A stretch of 64,000 nt of DNA from assembly GCA_900313005.1 (NCBI GenBank), contig ONZJ01000002.1:975001-1039000 (forward strand), written 5' to 3'. Numbering within the stretch: the stretch's first letter is position 1; each line of letters starts with the position of its first letter. This stretch comes from Rhodobacteraceae bacterium EL129 (GTDB lineage Bacteria; Pseudomonadota; Alphaproteobacteria; Rhodobacterales; Rhodobacteraceae). The notes beneath the pieces were generated by a model. It was given only the letters and a program-made list of their open reading frames with translations. It made no database searches and was not told where the DNA came from. The translations under genes and the position numbers were made by a program. Shown here piece after piece: positions 3,782-10,088 of this stretch.

Positions 3782-4072
3782 ATGAGTATCACAAAATCTA
3801 TGGCAGCAGCAGCCGCATTTGCAATGATCGCCAGCGCGGCAGTGGCCGAAATGAAGGTCTACCCCTATCACTCATCCGGCAACTATTGCCCCGACGGGTT
3901 GCAGCCTATCACCATCTCTGGCGTGATTTGCTGTGGGACGCCAAACACTAAACAGTCCTACCAGTCCGCGATGGCACATCCGACGCCCAAGAAAAAGCAC
4001 TACAAGAAAAAGCACAAGCACATGTCGCGCGCGGCTGACACCTGCCCTGAGGGGACCAAAGGCTGTTACTAA
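3782..4072 (+). CDS. Small secreted Cys-, His- and Lys-rich protein
   Basis: A 96-residue protein that I do not recognise. Residues 1-22 form a signal peptide ending AAVA. The mature part has C36 in YCPDG, a vicinal pair C50-C51, and C-terminal CPEGTKGC, separated by a very basic tract of His and Lys (PKKKHYKKKHKH). Two Cys-Pro-x-Gly units frame the protein. The arrangement would suit disulphides or metal binding in the periplasm (inference). The start follows a G-rich site (ATGGGGGCACC). It stands alone, followed by a good terminator at 4152-4177. Confidence 0.7.
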   Translation: MSITKSMAAAAAFAMIASAAVAEMKVYPYHSSGNYCPDGLQPITISGVICCGTPNTKQSYQSAMAHPTPKKKHYKKKHKHMSRAADTCPEGTKGCY

Positions 4073-5004: not shown

Positions 5005-5373
5005 ATGCGCAATGCAGCGATGATTTTGGGGGTGATCGGCGGCGTGATGGCCATCGTTCTGGGTTTTTTCAGCTTTGGCTACACCGAGGCGATTGAGCGT
5101 TACGGTGAAATCGAAGGCCTGGCCGAACAGGTGGACCGTGTTGGATTGACCCGCACTGTCAGCTTTCTAACCCCACTTTTTGCCATTGCGGGGGGGGCCA
5201 TGTCGCCTTCACGGGCGCTGTGGGGTGGGATCCTTATGCTGATCGCCGCGGCGATGATGTTGTATACGTTCAAGTTTAACGTCTTCACCATGTTCCCTAT
5301 CGGGCTGACTGGCCTTGCTGGTGTTCTGGCCCTGGCTGGCGGCCGCCCGGATGAACCTAAGTCTCACTTTTAG
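5005..5373 (+). CDS. Small four-helix membrane protein (DUF4064-like)
   Basis: A 122-residue hydrophobic protein with about four membrane segments (residues 5-25, 50-65, 70-90, 95-115) and a polar stretch with EAIERYGEIEGLAEQVDR after the first helix. The layout resembles DUF4064-type proteins, but I cannot confirm the family. It has no clear enzyme motif. Its last 17 bases overlap the end of the opposite-strand DoxX gene, so the two transcripts converge. Confidence 0.65.
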   Translation: MRNAAMILGVIGGVMAIVLGFFSFGYTEAIERYGEIEGLAEQVDRVGLTRTVSFLTPLFAIAGGAMSPSRALWGGILMLIAAAMMLYTFKFNVFTMFPIGLTGLAGVLALAGGRPDEPKSHF

Positions 5374-5887
5374 ATTTTGGCGACAGCAGCCGGTCCAGGG
5401 ACAAAGGTCCGGCACCTTTGATCACCAGGACGATAAACAGGAAGATCCAGAAGGTGCGTTCGTCAATGAGCGCTATGGATGTGTCAAAGAACCCACCCAG
5501 TTTGGCGCCGTGACCCGCCACATCCACCACGGTTTGGACAAGCACGAAACCGATCATTGCCAATGCCGCGAGCCGCGTTAGAAAGCCGACGAGGATCAAT
5601 ACGGGCAGCACAAATTCTGCGACTGTGCCGGCAAAAATCACCAGGCGCTGAAACAGGCTCAATTCCCCAACGTTATAGAGCGCCTCTTCTGCGGCTTTGG
5701 GGAAGATCTGCCCAAACGCACCAGCAGACGGCGAAAAGATCGAACCGTCAATTTTGAGCATGGCAGAGTTCCAGAAATAGAAGAACAAAACCAAGGCAAA
5801 CACCACTCGCGCCAGCGTCGGCAGCAGCCAATCTGCGCGATCAAGCGGCTCAAAGATGGAATTGTACAGGGATGTCAGGGCGTTCAT
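5357..5887 (-). CDS. DoxX-family membrane protein of the bufferin operon (BufD-like)
   Basis: A 176-residue DoxX protein with four membrane segments (about residues 20-38, 65-90, 95-115, 140-158), including RVVFALVLFFYFWNSAMLKI and LILVGFLTRLAALAMIG, typical of the family. It is the last gene of a four-gene minus-strand operon and its ATG overlaps the stop of the DUF2063 gene by four bases. DoxX proteins accompany many DUF2282-DUF692 operons. The membrane role in bufferin biology is not firmly known; redox or export functions are possible. It overlaps the end of a convergent membrane-protein gene. Confidence 0.85.
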   Translation of the reverse strand: MNALTSLYNSIFEPLDRADWLLPTLARVVFALVLFFYFWNSAMLKIDGSIFSPSAGAFGQIFPKAAEEALYNVGELSLFQRLVIFAGTVAEFVLPVLILVGFLTRLAALAMIGFVLVQTVVDVAGHGAKLGGFFDTSIALIDERTFWIFLFIVLVIKGAGPLSLDRLLSPKSKSET

Positions 5888-6645
5888 GTCGGTTCTCCGG
5901 TAAATATGCGTGTGATCGCGCCATGGCCGAGCAGCAAGCCAAGAAGCTGACCGAGGTCAAAAGAAGGGTCTTCTTTGAGGGCGGCATCATTGGCATCTGA
6001 AAGGGCTTCGCCGCGCATCAATGCGGCCATTGCGACGGCGGCTGGTTCAGCCAATAGATGTGGCATCGGGTCAAATTCGGGGCGCAGCACCAGCACGGAT
6101 TGCGCCGCTTTGGGCGGTTGGGATGCGCCGTCCTCGGTGTTGAACACCCAGATACCATGGATCGGCCAAGGCGAGCGTTGCAAGATCGTGCTTGGGGCGA
6201 AATCAAAGCGCGCGGCGGCCATTTCTTCTGGCGTGAGCGCTTGCAGTTCGGCCGGGTCAATCGGCGTGGAATCTGCGGCGTGGTAGGACACTCGCAAGGC
6301 TTGTTCCAACCGCGCGACATCCGGCAAATAGCCGATATGTTCCAAGGGCTTAAACCCCTCCAGAAAGCCGGGCATTTCATCGCCATACTGCGAGAGCATC
6401 GGCACCTTGGGGGGGTGTTGGCGCAGAAGCACCGACGACACTTTCTTGAAGTTCTCTTCGCCGATCAGTTTTTGGATCACCGGGAAGCTGATTTCCAATG
6501 CCTCGGTCAGCGAGGAGGCCACATTGTTGCGATAGACCGCAAAGCGCGATCCGGCGGGCTGGCCTTGCCCATCGGACAGACCCTCCGGGACCGGCTGGTT
6601 TGGATCAAGCAGCGCGGTGTGAAATTTCAGCTGTGAGACAGTCAT
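5884..6645 (-). CDS. DUF2063 partner protein of the MNIO enzyme (BufC-like)
   Basis: A 253-residue protein with an N-terminal DUF2063 domain (about residues 1-95), including [19 protein letters not shown] and [13 protein letters not shown], the block formerly called a DNA-binding domain. In characterised MNIO systems this partner helps present the precursor peptide to the enzyme. The C-terminal part ([17 protein letters not shown] and on) is the usual extension. The start ATG 6645 overlaps the MNIO gene's TGA by four bases. A longer upstream reading of the frame exists but lies entirely inside the MNIO gene. Confidence 0.88.
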
Positions 6646-7499
6646 GCCGGCATCTTCTCCAGTGCGGCCGTGGCGCGCATGGCTTCGGCGGACAGGGCGG
6701 GCCAGTCGGGCACATCCGCATCCCATTCGATCAGCAGAGGCTTCGGGCCGGAACGTTCCAACGTGTAGTCCAGCAAAGTCCAGACCGGATCAGCCACCTC
6801 GCGTCCGTGGCTGTCGATCAGCAAAGGCGCACCGTGGTCGTCTTCGTCCTCGTCGTGGCCACCAAGGTGGATTTCGCCGACCAGATGCAGCGGAAAGGCA
6901 TCGACATAGGCACGTGGGTCCAGTTTCAGATTGGTTGCAGACACAAAGATATTGTTCACATCGAGCAGCAAGCCACAGCCTGTGCGTTTGGCAATCTGAT
7001 GCAGGAATTCGGTTTCCTCCATCGTGCTTTCTTCAAAGGCCAGATAGCTGGATGGATTTTCCAGCAGCATCTGACGGCCAACCACTTCCTGCACCTGATC
7101 AATGTGATTGGCGACGCGGGTCAGTGTGGCATCTGTATAGGGCAGCGGCAGCAGATCATTCAGGAAATGCGCGTCGTGGGTGGACCAGGCCAAATGCTCG
7201 GAAAAGCTGGCGGGTTGCAGCCAATCACATAGGTGTTTCAGACGGGCAAGGTGATCCTCGTCCAGGGGCATCTCGCCACCTATGGACAGGCCAACGCCGT
7301 GGACGGAGAAGGCAAAACGTTCGGCCAAGTGACGCAGTTGCGCCAGAGGGCGGCCACCGGCACCCATGTAGTTTTCAGCGTGAATTTCGAGCCATTCCAC
7401 AGGGGTCGCATTATCAAGGATATCGGCAAAGTGCTGAGGCTTGTAGCCGACCCCAGGGGCGGCGGGAAGTTCTGGAAATTTGTGGGATGTATCAAGCAT
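6642..7499 (-). CDS. DUF692 / MNIO multinuclear iron oxygenase (BufB-like)
   Basis: A 285-residue DUF692 protein, a TIM-barrel enzyme of the MbnB/TglH class that uses two or three iron ions and oxygen to modify cysteines in a partner peptide. Likely metal ligands lie in [53 protein letters not shown] and LIEWDADVP. In characterised bufferin operons the enzyme turns precursor cysteines into thiooxazole-type groups, which is the likely role here because a DUF2282 precursor is encoded just upstream. The start at 7499 lies 81 bases from the precursor stop, with a hairpin between. Confidence 0.92.
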
Positions 7500-7533
7500 G
7501 GCGGCAATGCTTTCATCAAAACTGAGGGGGTGA

Positions 7534-7556
7534 GATGCGCGAAATCTCCGCGCATC
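7534..7556 (-). promoter_or_regulatory. Hairpin between the bufferin precursor and MNIO genes
   Basis: An 8-bp perfect stem (GATGCGCG with CGCGCATC) and a 7-base loop lie in the 81-base gap between the precursor stop and the MNIO start. No U-run follows on the minus strand, so it is not a standard terminator. It could stabilise the precursor mRNA or lower readthrough, giving more precursor than enzyme (inference). Confidence 0.55.
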
Positions 7557-7580
7557 CCTATCGGTGTTAGACTGAAAATA

Positions 7581-7868
7581 TCAGCCTGGCAGATCACGGT
7601 CCAGCTCTTCGAGCGAACCCATACGGTCGCCGTCGAGTTCCATGGTTACACATGTGCCTGCGTCTACCAGTTTCCAGGCATTGCCTTGGTAATCAACGGT
7701 TGAGGAACCGGCACATGTTGTTCCTGCACCTGCTTTGCAGTCGTTTTCGCCAGCCAGCGATACGCCATAGCATTTTTCTTTGTCAGCAGCGACAGCTGTT
7801 GAAGTGTGAGCAGCCAGAGCAGCAGTTACGGCACCAGCGATTGCAACGGTTTTCATCATAGTCGACAT
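7581..7868 (-). CDS. DUF2282 precursor peptide (bufferin, BufA1-like)
   Basis: A 95-residue DUF2282 protein. Residues 1-27 form a signal peptide ending AVA, then the mature part with exactly four cysteines: C33 (EKCYGV), C44 (NDCKAG), C52 (TTCAGS) and C73 (AGTCV), the pattern of the bufferin precursors. From published work on this family, MNIO enzymes modify core cysteines and the exported product binds copper. Upstream of ATG 7868 is a good ribosome binding site (GGGAGAG). Order: precursor, MNIO, DUF2063, DoxX. The modified positions cannot be told from sequence. Confidence 0.9.
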
Positions 7869-8087
7869 TCGGGGTCTCTCCCTTAAAGGTTAAAGTCTAT
7901 CGCGGATCGGGGCGGTGGCAGGGGACGACTAGGTTTCTGCGTCACACCCCGTTTGGTTGCGATGACATAAAGATAACCTGTTTCACGTCGGGTGCACTTC
8001 ACGAGGCCGTTAGACACATGTGTGTTAGCGGATGTGAGCCGATGGTAAGACGGAAAGCCCTTGTTTTATTGGCGGGCAGGGCCGGTG

Positions 8088-8123
8088 GGCGAAACCCGTG
8101 TAACGAAAATTACGGGTTTCGCC
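8088..8123 (-). terminator. Stem-loop after thrS, weak terminator
   Basis: GGCGAAACCCGT pairs with ACGGGTTTCGCC, with TAA/TTA closing pairs and one unpaired base, 18 bases past the thrS stop codon on the minus strand. There is no long U-run after it, so termination may be partial. It sits between thrS and the promoter of the buf operon, which reads the same way. Confidence 0.55.
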
Positions 8124-8141: not shown

Positions 8142-10088
8142 TTACAGTTGGTCCGGGGGGGTCGCATCGCGTGAAAGTGCGGATGTTACAGCCTCAAGCG
8201 GTTCAACCTTGGTGTGTTTCTCACCCAAGCGGCGGATTGTGACGGAGCGGTCTTCGACCTCTTTGGCACCACAGGCCAGGATGACCGGCACTTTGCCGAC
8301 CGAATGTTCCCGAACCTTGTAGTTGATCTTCTCATTGCGCGTGTCGGCCTCGGCGCGGATACCTGCAGCGCGCAGGGTCTCGACCACCTCGTGCACATAG
8401 TCGTCCGCATCCGAGATGATCGAGGCGACCACCACTTGGCGCGGGGCGATCCAGAACGGCAGCTTGCCCGCATGCTCTTCGATCAGGATGCCGATGAAGC
8501 GTTCAAAGCTGCCAAGGGTGGCACGGTGCAGCATGACGGGGCGGTGTTTGTTGCCATCTGCGCCGATATAGCTGGCTCCCAGCCGCTCGGGCATCACAAA
8601 ATCCACCTGATGCGTCCCACATTGCCAATCCCGGCCGATGGCGTCGGTCAGCACAAACTCCAGTTTCGGGCCGTAGAACGCGCCTTCGCCGGGGTTCAGC
8701 TCGTAGTCGCAGCCTGCCGCCAGTGTGGCGGACATCAAAGCGGCCTCGGCCTTGTCCCACACCTCGTCCGAACCGGCACGGGTGTCGGGCCGGTCCGAGA
8801 ATTTCACTTTGAATTGCTCAAAGCCAAGGTCTTTGTAGACCTCCGACAAGAAGCGAATGAATTCGGCGGTTTCAGATTCGATCTGATCTTCGGCACAGAA
8901 GATATGGCCGTCATCCTGTGTAAAGCCGCGCACGCGCATGATGCCGTGCAGCGCACCGGAGGGTTCATAGCGCGCACAGCTGCCAAATTCGGCCATGCGC
9001 AGGGGCAGGTCACGGTAGCTCTTCAGGCCTTGGTTGAAGATTTGCACGTGGCAGGGGCAGTTCATCGGTTTCAGGGCGTTGATGGATTTTTCGCGAGCAT
9101 GATCCTCGTCCACTTCGACGATGAACATGTTTTCCTGATACTTCTCCCAGTGGCCCGAGGCCTCCCACAGCTTGCGATCCACGACCTGAGGCGTGTTCAC
9201 CTCAACATAGCCACCCGACACTTGCTTGCGCCGCATGTAGTCTTGCAAGCCAGTGAAGATGCGCCAGCCGTTGGGGTGCCAGAAGATCTGACCGGGGGCC
9301 TCTTCTTGCATGTGAAACAGATCCATCTCACGTCCAAGGCGGCGGTGGTCGCGTTTCTCGGCTTCTTCAAGGAAGTGTAAGTATTTCTTCAGGTTCTCTT
9401 TGTTCTGGAATGCCACACCGTAGATGCGTTGCAGCATCTCGCGATCACTGTCGCCACGCCAATACGCTCCGGCCACGCTCATGAGTTTGAAGGCATCTGC
9501 CGGCAGTTGTCCGGTGTGTTGCAGGTGCGGGCCACGACAAAGATCCTGCCAATCGCCGTGCCAATACATGCGCAAGGGTTCATCACCCGGAATGGCATCG
9601 ATCAGTTCGACCTTAAAAGGCTCGTCTGCGTCCTTATAGTGTTGCACGGCGCGATCCCGCTCCCAGACTTCGGTTTTCACCACGTCACGAGCGTTGATGA
9701 TCTCTTTCATCTTTTTTTCAATCGCGCCCAGGTCTTCGGGGGTGAAGGGCTCGGCGCGGTCAAAGTCATAGTACCAGCCGTTTTCGATCACAGGGCCGAT
9801 GGTGACTTTGACGTCGGGCCAAATCTCTTGCACAGCGCGTGCCATGACGTGAGCGAAGTCGTGCCGGATCAGTTCCAGCGCTGGGGCTTCGTCTTTCATT
9901 GTATTGATCGCGATGGCGGCGTCTGCCTCAATCGGCCACTGCAAATCCCAATGTTGCCCGTCCAGCTGCGCGCTGATCGCCTTCTTGGCAAGGGAGTTGG
10001 AGATGTCTGCCGCCACTTCGGCCGCGGTGATGCCTGCGGCGTATTCGCGCGCATTGCCATCGGGGAATGTCAGGGAAATCTGGGCCAT
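8142..10088 (-). CDS. thrS: Threonine-tRNA ligase
   Basis: A 648-residue class II synthetase, full length. An N-terminal TGS domain (residues 1-60) is followed by the editing domain with [12 protein letters not shown] (about residue 76) and the catalytic core. Zinc-site and active-site stretches include [37 protein letters not shown] and [16 protein letters not shown]; a C-terminal anticodon domain closes it. It charges tRNA-Thr in the cytoplasm. The ATG at 10088 has GAGGAG upstream. The gene stands alone; no T-box or obvious leader peptide is visible. Confidence 0.97.

Follow-up and report, generated by a model that had tools for sequence, protein, structure and literature searches.

Bufferins are peptides that handle copper; the class was described recently and is very widespread. 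In Caulobacter, the bufferin-1 operon (CC3254-CC3257 / CCNA_03363-03366) carries genes of the DUF2282, DUF692, DUF2063 and DoxX families in that order, and it is run by sigma-F, a sigma factor of the extracytoplasmic function group ECF16, with its anti-sigma partner NrsF (PMC3511200, PMC8224329); the sigma-F promoter is reported to have the form GTAACC-N16-CGAA (PMC3511200). Copper raises the expression of the Caulobacter DUF2282, DUF692 and DoxX genes, and the sigF mutant is described as copper-sensitive (PMC8224329). In Sinorhizobium meliloti, SMb20530-SMb20527 likewise combine DUF692 and DUF2063 genes in a single operon, downstream of a small gene, and differ in being run by the ECF16 factor RpoE7 (PMC6180224). 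The GIG operon of Cupriavidus and Legionella shares DUF2282/DUF692-type genes, its promoter answering to gold and copper, and differs in Legionella in that RpoS has been suggested for the promoter (PMC5413113). Captophorins with Lys-Cys repeats (fontiphorin, oxazolin/Hvf) share a multinuclear non-haem iron-dependent oxidative enzyme (MNIO, the DUF692 family) and a DUF2063 partner, with Cys-derived 5-thiooxazoles as their modification (PMC13097082). In those parts of the cited sources drawn on here and below, bufferin control has so far been described for ECF16 factors (sigma-F/NrsF and RpoE7), with RpoS suggested in Legionella, and the word "promoter" is absent from PMC12452194. Here we analyse a bufferin-1 operon with the Caulobacter gene order, together with a conserved tandem dyad upstream of its precursor gene bufA1 (hereafter bufA), in a stretch of 64,000 nucleotides from Rhodobacteraceae bacterium EL129 (contig ONZJ01000002.1, positions 975,001 to 1,039,000). 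The whole stretch is referred to as the window, and positions are counted from its first letter.

The EL129 operon differs from its Caulobacter counterpart in being present as a single copy, as opposed to two operons, in the lack of NrsF, and in the tandem dyad that lies upstream of bufA, where Caulobacter uses GTAACC-N16-CGAA. We consider it probable that the locus is a bufferin-1 operon making an exported copper-holding peptide, and that in the family such operons are usually driven by a putative regulator acting on the dyad and not by sigma-F/NrsF. Judged from the DNA, the control region departs from the published sigma-F type of Caulobacter and Sinorhizobium, and it is more distinctive than the operon itself. 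In this respect our view departs from the initial annotation, which had singled out the operon (5357-7868) as the most distinctive system of the window: the operon is ordinary and widespread, DUF2282 being found in 140 of 198 genera of the family (one genome per genus), and the distinctive part is the control region, which lies outside that interval.

The dyad TAACACACATGTGTCTAACGGCCTCGTGA is located at 7999-8027 on the minus strand (7995-8038 with a flanking half-site), in the gap between bufA and thrS, and is followed 23 nt downstream by a -10-like box, TATCTT (7970-7975, minus strand). Its pattern, TNACR-N4-YGTG-N4-ACG-N4-YGTGA and then the -10-like box, belongs to a shared block that was first recognised by side-by-side reading of thrS-bufA gaps. 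In the profile of 47 non-redundant sequences, this block reads TCAC, TNACG, CGTGA, NACG and CGTGAATGG, after which come some 20 bases of weak conservation and then a TANNTT box. The site was present within 2 mismatches in 78 of 80 gaps (the window plus 79 of the best 80 named relatives by MNIO match, L135 being without upstream DNA), a set of close relatives that are not independent; shuffled gaps gave a mean of 0.06 in 80, and the two gaps without the site were those of L138 and L096. Of these 78 loci, 63 have a TANNNT box at a distance of 21-27 nt beyond the site, compared with 11% in shuffles. No -35 box was seen at the bufA promoter, and the dyad ends about where it would be expected, an arrangement that would fit an activator.

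Within its own genome the dyad has a single exact match, the one at buf. A wider regulon was rejected as chance: at a setting of two mismatches there are 25 other places, all of them inside a mechanically called open reading frame (ORF) of at least 80 aa on either strand, and 14 matches are obtained at this stringency with the pattern reversed. Among the 198 genomes of the family, exact matches occur in 56 and the reversed pattern in none; of the 57 exact-match places, 52 are no more than 600 bp from a DUF2282 gene and five lie away from buf. Sense-strand scanning of 450 bp upstream of the DUF2282 genes with up to 2 mismatches, in 139 readable loci from the 140 genera (G157 was dropped for having too little DNA), detected the site upstream of bufA in 93, and in one for the reversed control. 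In a further locus (L198, genome G122), the stretch before bufA holds no more than a 3-mismatch copy, and an exact site stands in the bufA-bufB interval, preceded by a T-run hairpin; counting it as positive gives 94 of 139. The genus shows the same association: of its 60 genomes 29 have DUF2282, and in 25 of these the site stands next to that gene with no more than 1 mismatch. At the level of the order, a pattern lengthened by two bases, to which the site in the window itself does not conform, matches 97 of 390 genomes (reversed pattern, none), and all 30 of the loci fetched were at buf, some of them without thrS in the fetched DNA.

Copies of the dyad away from buf were also inspected. Two of the exact matches, each from one genome, are kept as weak leads and precede a Met-rich secreted protein without a Pfam match (L203/L378) and a secreted L,D-transpeptidase of the YkuD type, with no -10-like box seen (L199/L379). 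Among four one-mismatch copies read, one with a -10-like box (L375, likewise one genome) is kept as a lead; the secreted protein behind it has a twin-arginine-like start and no Pfam match. As targets we rejected the exact matches L381 and L382, which fall inside long ORFs, and L380, which looks by eye like dehydrogenase coding sequence, together with the one-mismatch copy L374, inside an ORF.

Sigma-F control in this genome was rejected on the lack of any NrsF match (0 matches to PF06532, with the Caulobacter control matched) and of a valid sigma-F promoter, since the 350 bp scanned upstream of bufA contain one match to GTAAC-N15..18-CGW, which reads as the coding end of thrS. Across the family, all 15 loci in which SigF or NrsF is matched next to buf lack the site, and 93 of the 124 others have it. 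These sigF/nrsF-linked loci carry GTAAC-N15..18-CGW in 14 of 15 cases (reversed, 0), a motif close to the sigma-F form of Caulobacter. When NrsF was considered anywhere in the genome, the site was present in 2 of 23 genomes with NrsF and in 92 of 116 without it (p 1.5e-10, with 94 of 139 positive), the two exceptions being G188, where the NrsF match is below the cut-off and has two stops, and G214. The sigma-F motif is not a clean test, in that 24 of the 92 site-positive, NrsF-negative loci also match it (reversed control, 2), 18 of these matches starting inside the coding end of thrS and six not. Where NrsF is encoded away from buf, 4 of 8 loci carry the motif (control, 1); among the 24 loci with neither the site nor NrsF, 0 carry it (control, 1).

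Several observations weigh against the main reading given above. An activator role is suggested only by the position of the dyad and the missing -35 box. Neither the site nor NrsF is present in 24 of the 139 family loci, and a third control mode may therefore exist in the family. The site is moreover linked with a thrS-type locus, thrS being in the fetched DNA of 85 of the 94 site-positive and 11 of the 45 site-negative loci, and common descent hence explains part of its distribution, a point against a simple replacement of sigma-F by a regulator at the dyad. Regarding the assignment of the proteins, BufC and DoxX score below the NCBIfam cut-offs of the Hvf family (HvfC and HvfX), by which, as by its DUF2282 precursor of four-Cys type, the cluster departs from the captophorins. 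The exclusion between site and sigma-F could reflect shared ancestry only, with an old type of locus next to thrS bearing the site, another old type, located elsewhere, bearing sigF-nrsF, and no swap of regulators. However, the association persists among thrS-linked loci (with NrsF, two with and three without the site; no NrsF, 83 and 8; p 0.01) as well as among the remaining loci (with NrsF, 0 and 18; no NrsF, 9 and 16; p 0.006), with the reservation that the genomes are not independent. Furthermore, in L138 (Pseudooceanicola atlanticus) sigF-nrsF lies between thrS and bufA and the site is missing, a combination repeated in G251. We regard ancestry as the sole explanation as a serious possibility, albeit one that we lean against. 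The replacement of sigma-F/NrsF, in most buf-bearing members of the family, by a putative transcription factor that would read envelope metal stress through a 29-bp tandem dyad confined almost entirely to the bufferin operon, with few targets elsewhere (L203/L378, L375, L199/L379), is in our judgement evenly balanced.

A dedicated regulator would act at the dyad. Two other explanations of the site were weighed. The site could be the box of a heavy-metal response regulator of the CusR/CopR type, making the operon one more copper two-component target: its TNAC...GTNA half-sites are similar to boxes reported for CopR/CusR (TGACA-N4-TGTCA, PMC12428095; CTGACA-N5-GTAAT, PMC11195947), and the genome codes for a single protein resembling TIGR01387, at 244 bits against a cut-off of 279.2. 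Yet a TIGR01387-type protein (E up to 1e-60, with only 14 candidates scored per genome) is equally frequent with the site (34/94) and without it (15/45; p 0.85), and this candidate, plausible in half-site shape and negative in co-occurrence profile, was rejected; we hold the explanation to be quite unlikely. That the dyad, self-complementary and placed in the gap after thrS, works as an RNA hairpin, such as a thrS terminator or a leader element, instead of a protein site on DNA, appears highly improbable: it is present at buf loci with no thrS in reach, in L198 it stands between bufA and bufB behind another T-run hairpin, its half-site bases are kept in identity, and the -10-like box follows at a steady distance. 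The ORFs around L138, L128, L114, L141, L214 and L201 and those of site-positive loci with no thrS in reach were screened for a regulator gene beside buf, and yielded sigF-nrsF in L138 only and a WYL-like protein, called by eye, in G156. As to the stress that is answered, copper might not be the main signal for the peptide, which could answer above all to gold, to cadmium, to chromate or to oxidative stress, as the Legionella gig promoter is reported to respond to gold as well as copper (PMC5413113) and the sigma-F genes of Caulobacter to chromate and cadmium (PMC3511200). In Caulobacter, nevertheless, copper harms the sigF mutant, and mutants are described, in the parts of the sources used here, as no more sensitive to dichromate or cadmium (PMC8224329, PMC3511200), and we consider a main response to a stress other than copper rather unlikely.

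The four-gene bufferin-type operon proposed by the initial annotation is indeed present, all genes lying on the minus strand and all matching Pfam families above the curated cut-offs. It comprises bufA, for the bufferin-1 precursor (7581-7868; 95 aa; DUF2282, PF10048, 84.1 bits); bufB, for the MNIO maturase (6642-7499; 285 aa; MbnB_TglH_ChrH, PF05114, 350.4 bits); bufC, for a DUF2063 partner with a second domain of the precursor recognition element (RRE) type (5884-6645; 253 aa; PF09836, 76.8 bits); and doxX, for a DoxX-family membrane protein (5357-5887; 176 aa), whose match passes narrowly (PF07681, 26.9 bits against a cut-off of 23.6). The four-base overlaps said to join the genes were verified for bufB/bufC (6642-6645) and bufC/doxX (5884-5887) and not for bufA/bufB, which are 81 bp apart, so that joining by overlap is limited to the last three genes. 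The genome (3.94 Mb in 3 contigs) has one MNIO match and one DUF2282 match. The best named MNIO match is from Roseovarius (86%), which makes this the probable genus of EL129. The best 80 named relatives carry, on the same strand, bufA, bufB and bufC in 80 cases, doxX in 79 (the sole gap, L066, is a contig that ends in bufC) and a thrS match in 78. The order thrS-bufA-bufB-bufC-doxX is nearly fixed in this set; such a shared gene set indicates that the arrangement is not due to chance, and together with the wide occurrence of DUF2282 in the family it marks the operon as such as ordinary. Beyond these genomes, 250 plasmid records carry DUF2282-type precursors, NZ_CP103757.1 and NZ_CP030298.1 being examples; 60 of these records come from Escherichia and 17 from Klebsiella.

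Membership of the precursor in the DUF2282 family was upheld by its Pfam score, and its four cysteines occupy the positions first given for them (C33, C44, C52 and C73). They are invariant in the 35 aligned BufA1 sequences (34 of the 80 loci, left after removal of similar sequences, plus the window), as is the frame KC.G...AG.N.C.AG.GT.CAG....D.QGN, and the four-Cys pattern recurs in 139 of 140 family loci, G189 being the exception. The N-terminus, judged by eye only, has Lys-6, a hydrophobic stretch and A-V-A at 25-27, typical of a Sec signal. A bufferin-2 precursor (BufA2, with six or twelve Cys) is ruled out by the four cysteines and by a score of 20.9 bits against a cut-off of 60 for NF050166. 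The C-terminal tail (7581-7616), outside the DUF2282 match, ends in RDLP, and 118 of 140 family loci share an ending of the form R[DE][LIV]P. The structure model of BufA1 (predicted local distance difference test, pLDDT, 59.7) was not used, and comparison of the BufA and BufC sequences with those of the PDB gave no useful match.

BufB exceeds the NCBIfam cut-off for MNIO_BufB (NF050167; 376.6 against 310 bits) and aligns with 3bww, 8hci and 7dz9. Its residues H67, H102, E147, D180, N183, H211, H215, D229, H231 and E258 are invariant across 81 sequences, and the iron ligands presumably lie among them, as we take it from the alignments and from general knowledge of the family. For BufC, the predicted model (pLDDT 93.6) has only three PDB matches at E up to 0.001, TglI (8hci_A and 8hi7_A) and NGO1945 (3dee), the structures named in PMC12452194 for the BufC partner type. 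The combination of a four-Cys DUF2282 precursor, a BufB-type MNIO, a DUF2063 partner with an RRE-type domain and DoxX supports, at the level of sequence and model, the assignment to the bufferin-1 clusters.

By analogy with characterised relatives, the locus most likely makes an exported copper-holding peptide that would act in metal buffering. In Buf1 the central cysteines are reported as the modified ones and the outer two as forming a disulphide (PMC12452194), and measurements on fontiphorin gave a loss of 4 Da for each thiooxazole (PMC13097082). Following these precedents, BufA1 would be made with a Sec signal and be presented in the cytoplasm by BufC, via its RRE-type domain, to the iron enzyme BufB, which would oxidise the two central cysteines (C44 and C52) to 5-thiooxazoles with the loss of about 4 Da each, while C33 and C73 would form a disulphide. 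The exported peptide would hold excess copper in the periplasm, and DoxX may assist at the membrane. Expression would start from a promoter with no recognisable -35 box, a regulator, most likely an activator, sitting on the tandem dyad just upstream.

Outside this system, thrS (8142-10088, minus strand, Pfam match) is the upstream same-strand neighbour and served as a synteny marker. Just after it lies a perfect 12-bp inverted repeat with a 12-nt loop (8088-8123), found once in the window against a chance expectation of 0, with no T run after it on the buf strand. Complementary ATCGC...GCGAT pieces at about 7900-7970, near the presumed transcription start, were seen by eye in several relatives and could form a leader hairpin. 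On the plus strand, a small membrane-like protein without a Pfam match (5005-5373) is convergent with doxX, overlapping its 3' end by 17 bp, and has a relative on the strand opposite buf in 61 of the 80 named loci; a small, apparently secreted Cys/Lys/His-rich protein, also without a Pfam match (3782-4072), has relatives near buf in 7 of the 80.

No description of the dyad was found in the literature searched, which was largely open-access and was judged by the titles and abstract openings listed. By title, none of the papers listed on Ruegeria pomeroyi copper/transcriptome, DUF692 in Roseobacter, or DUF2282/copper in Rhodobacter deals with this operon. A sharply conserved site common to many genera of a major marine family provides a handle for finding a second regulator of the stress response concerned, and it allows a test of whether and how the bufferin operon changes its controller in the course of evolution.

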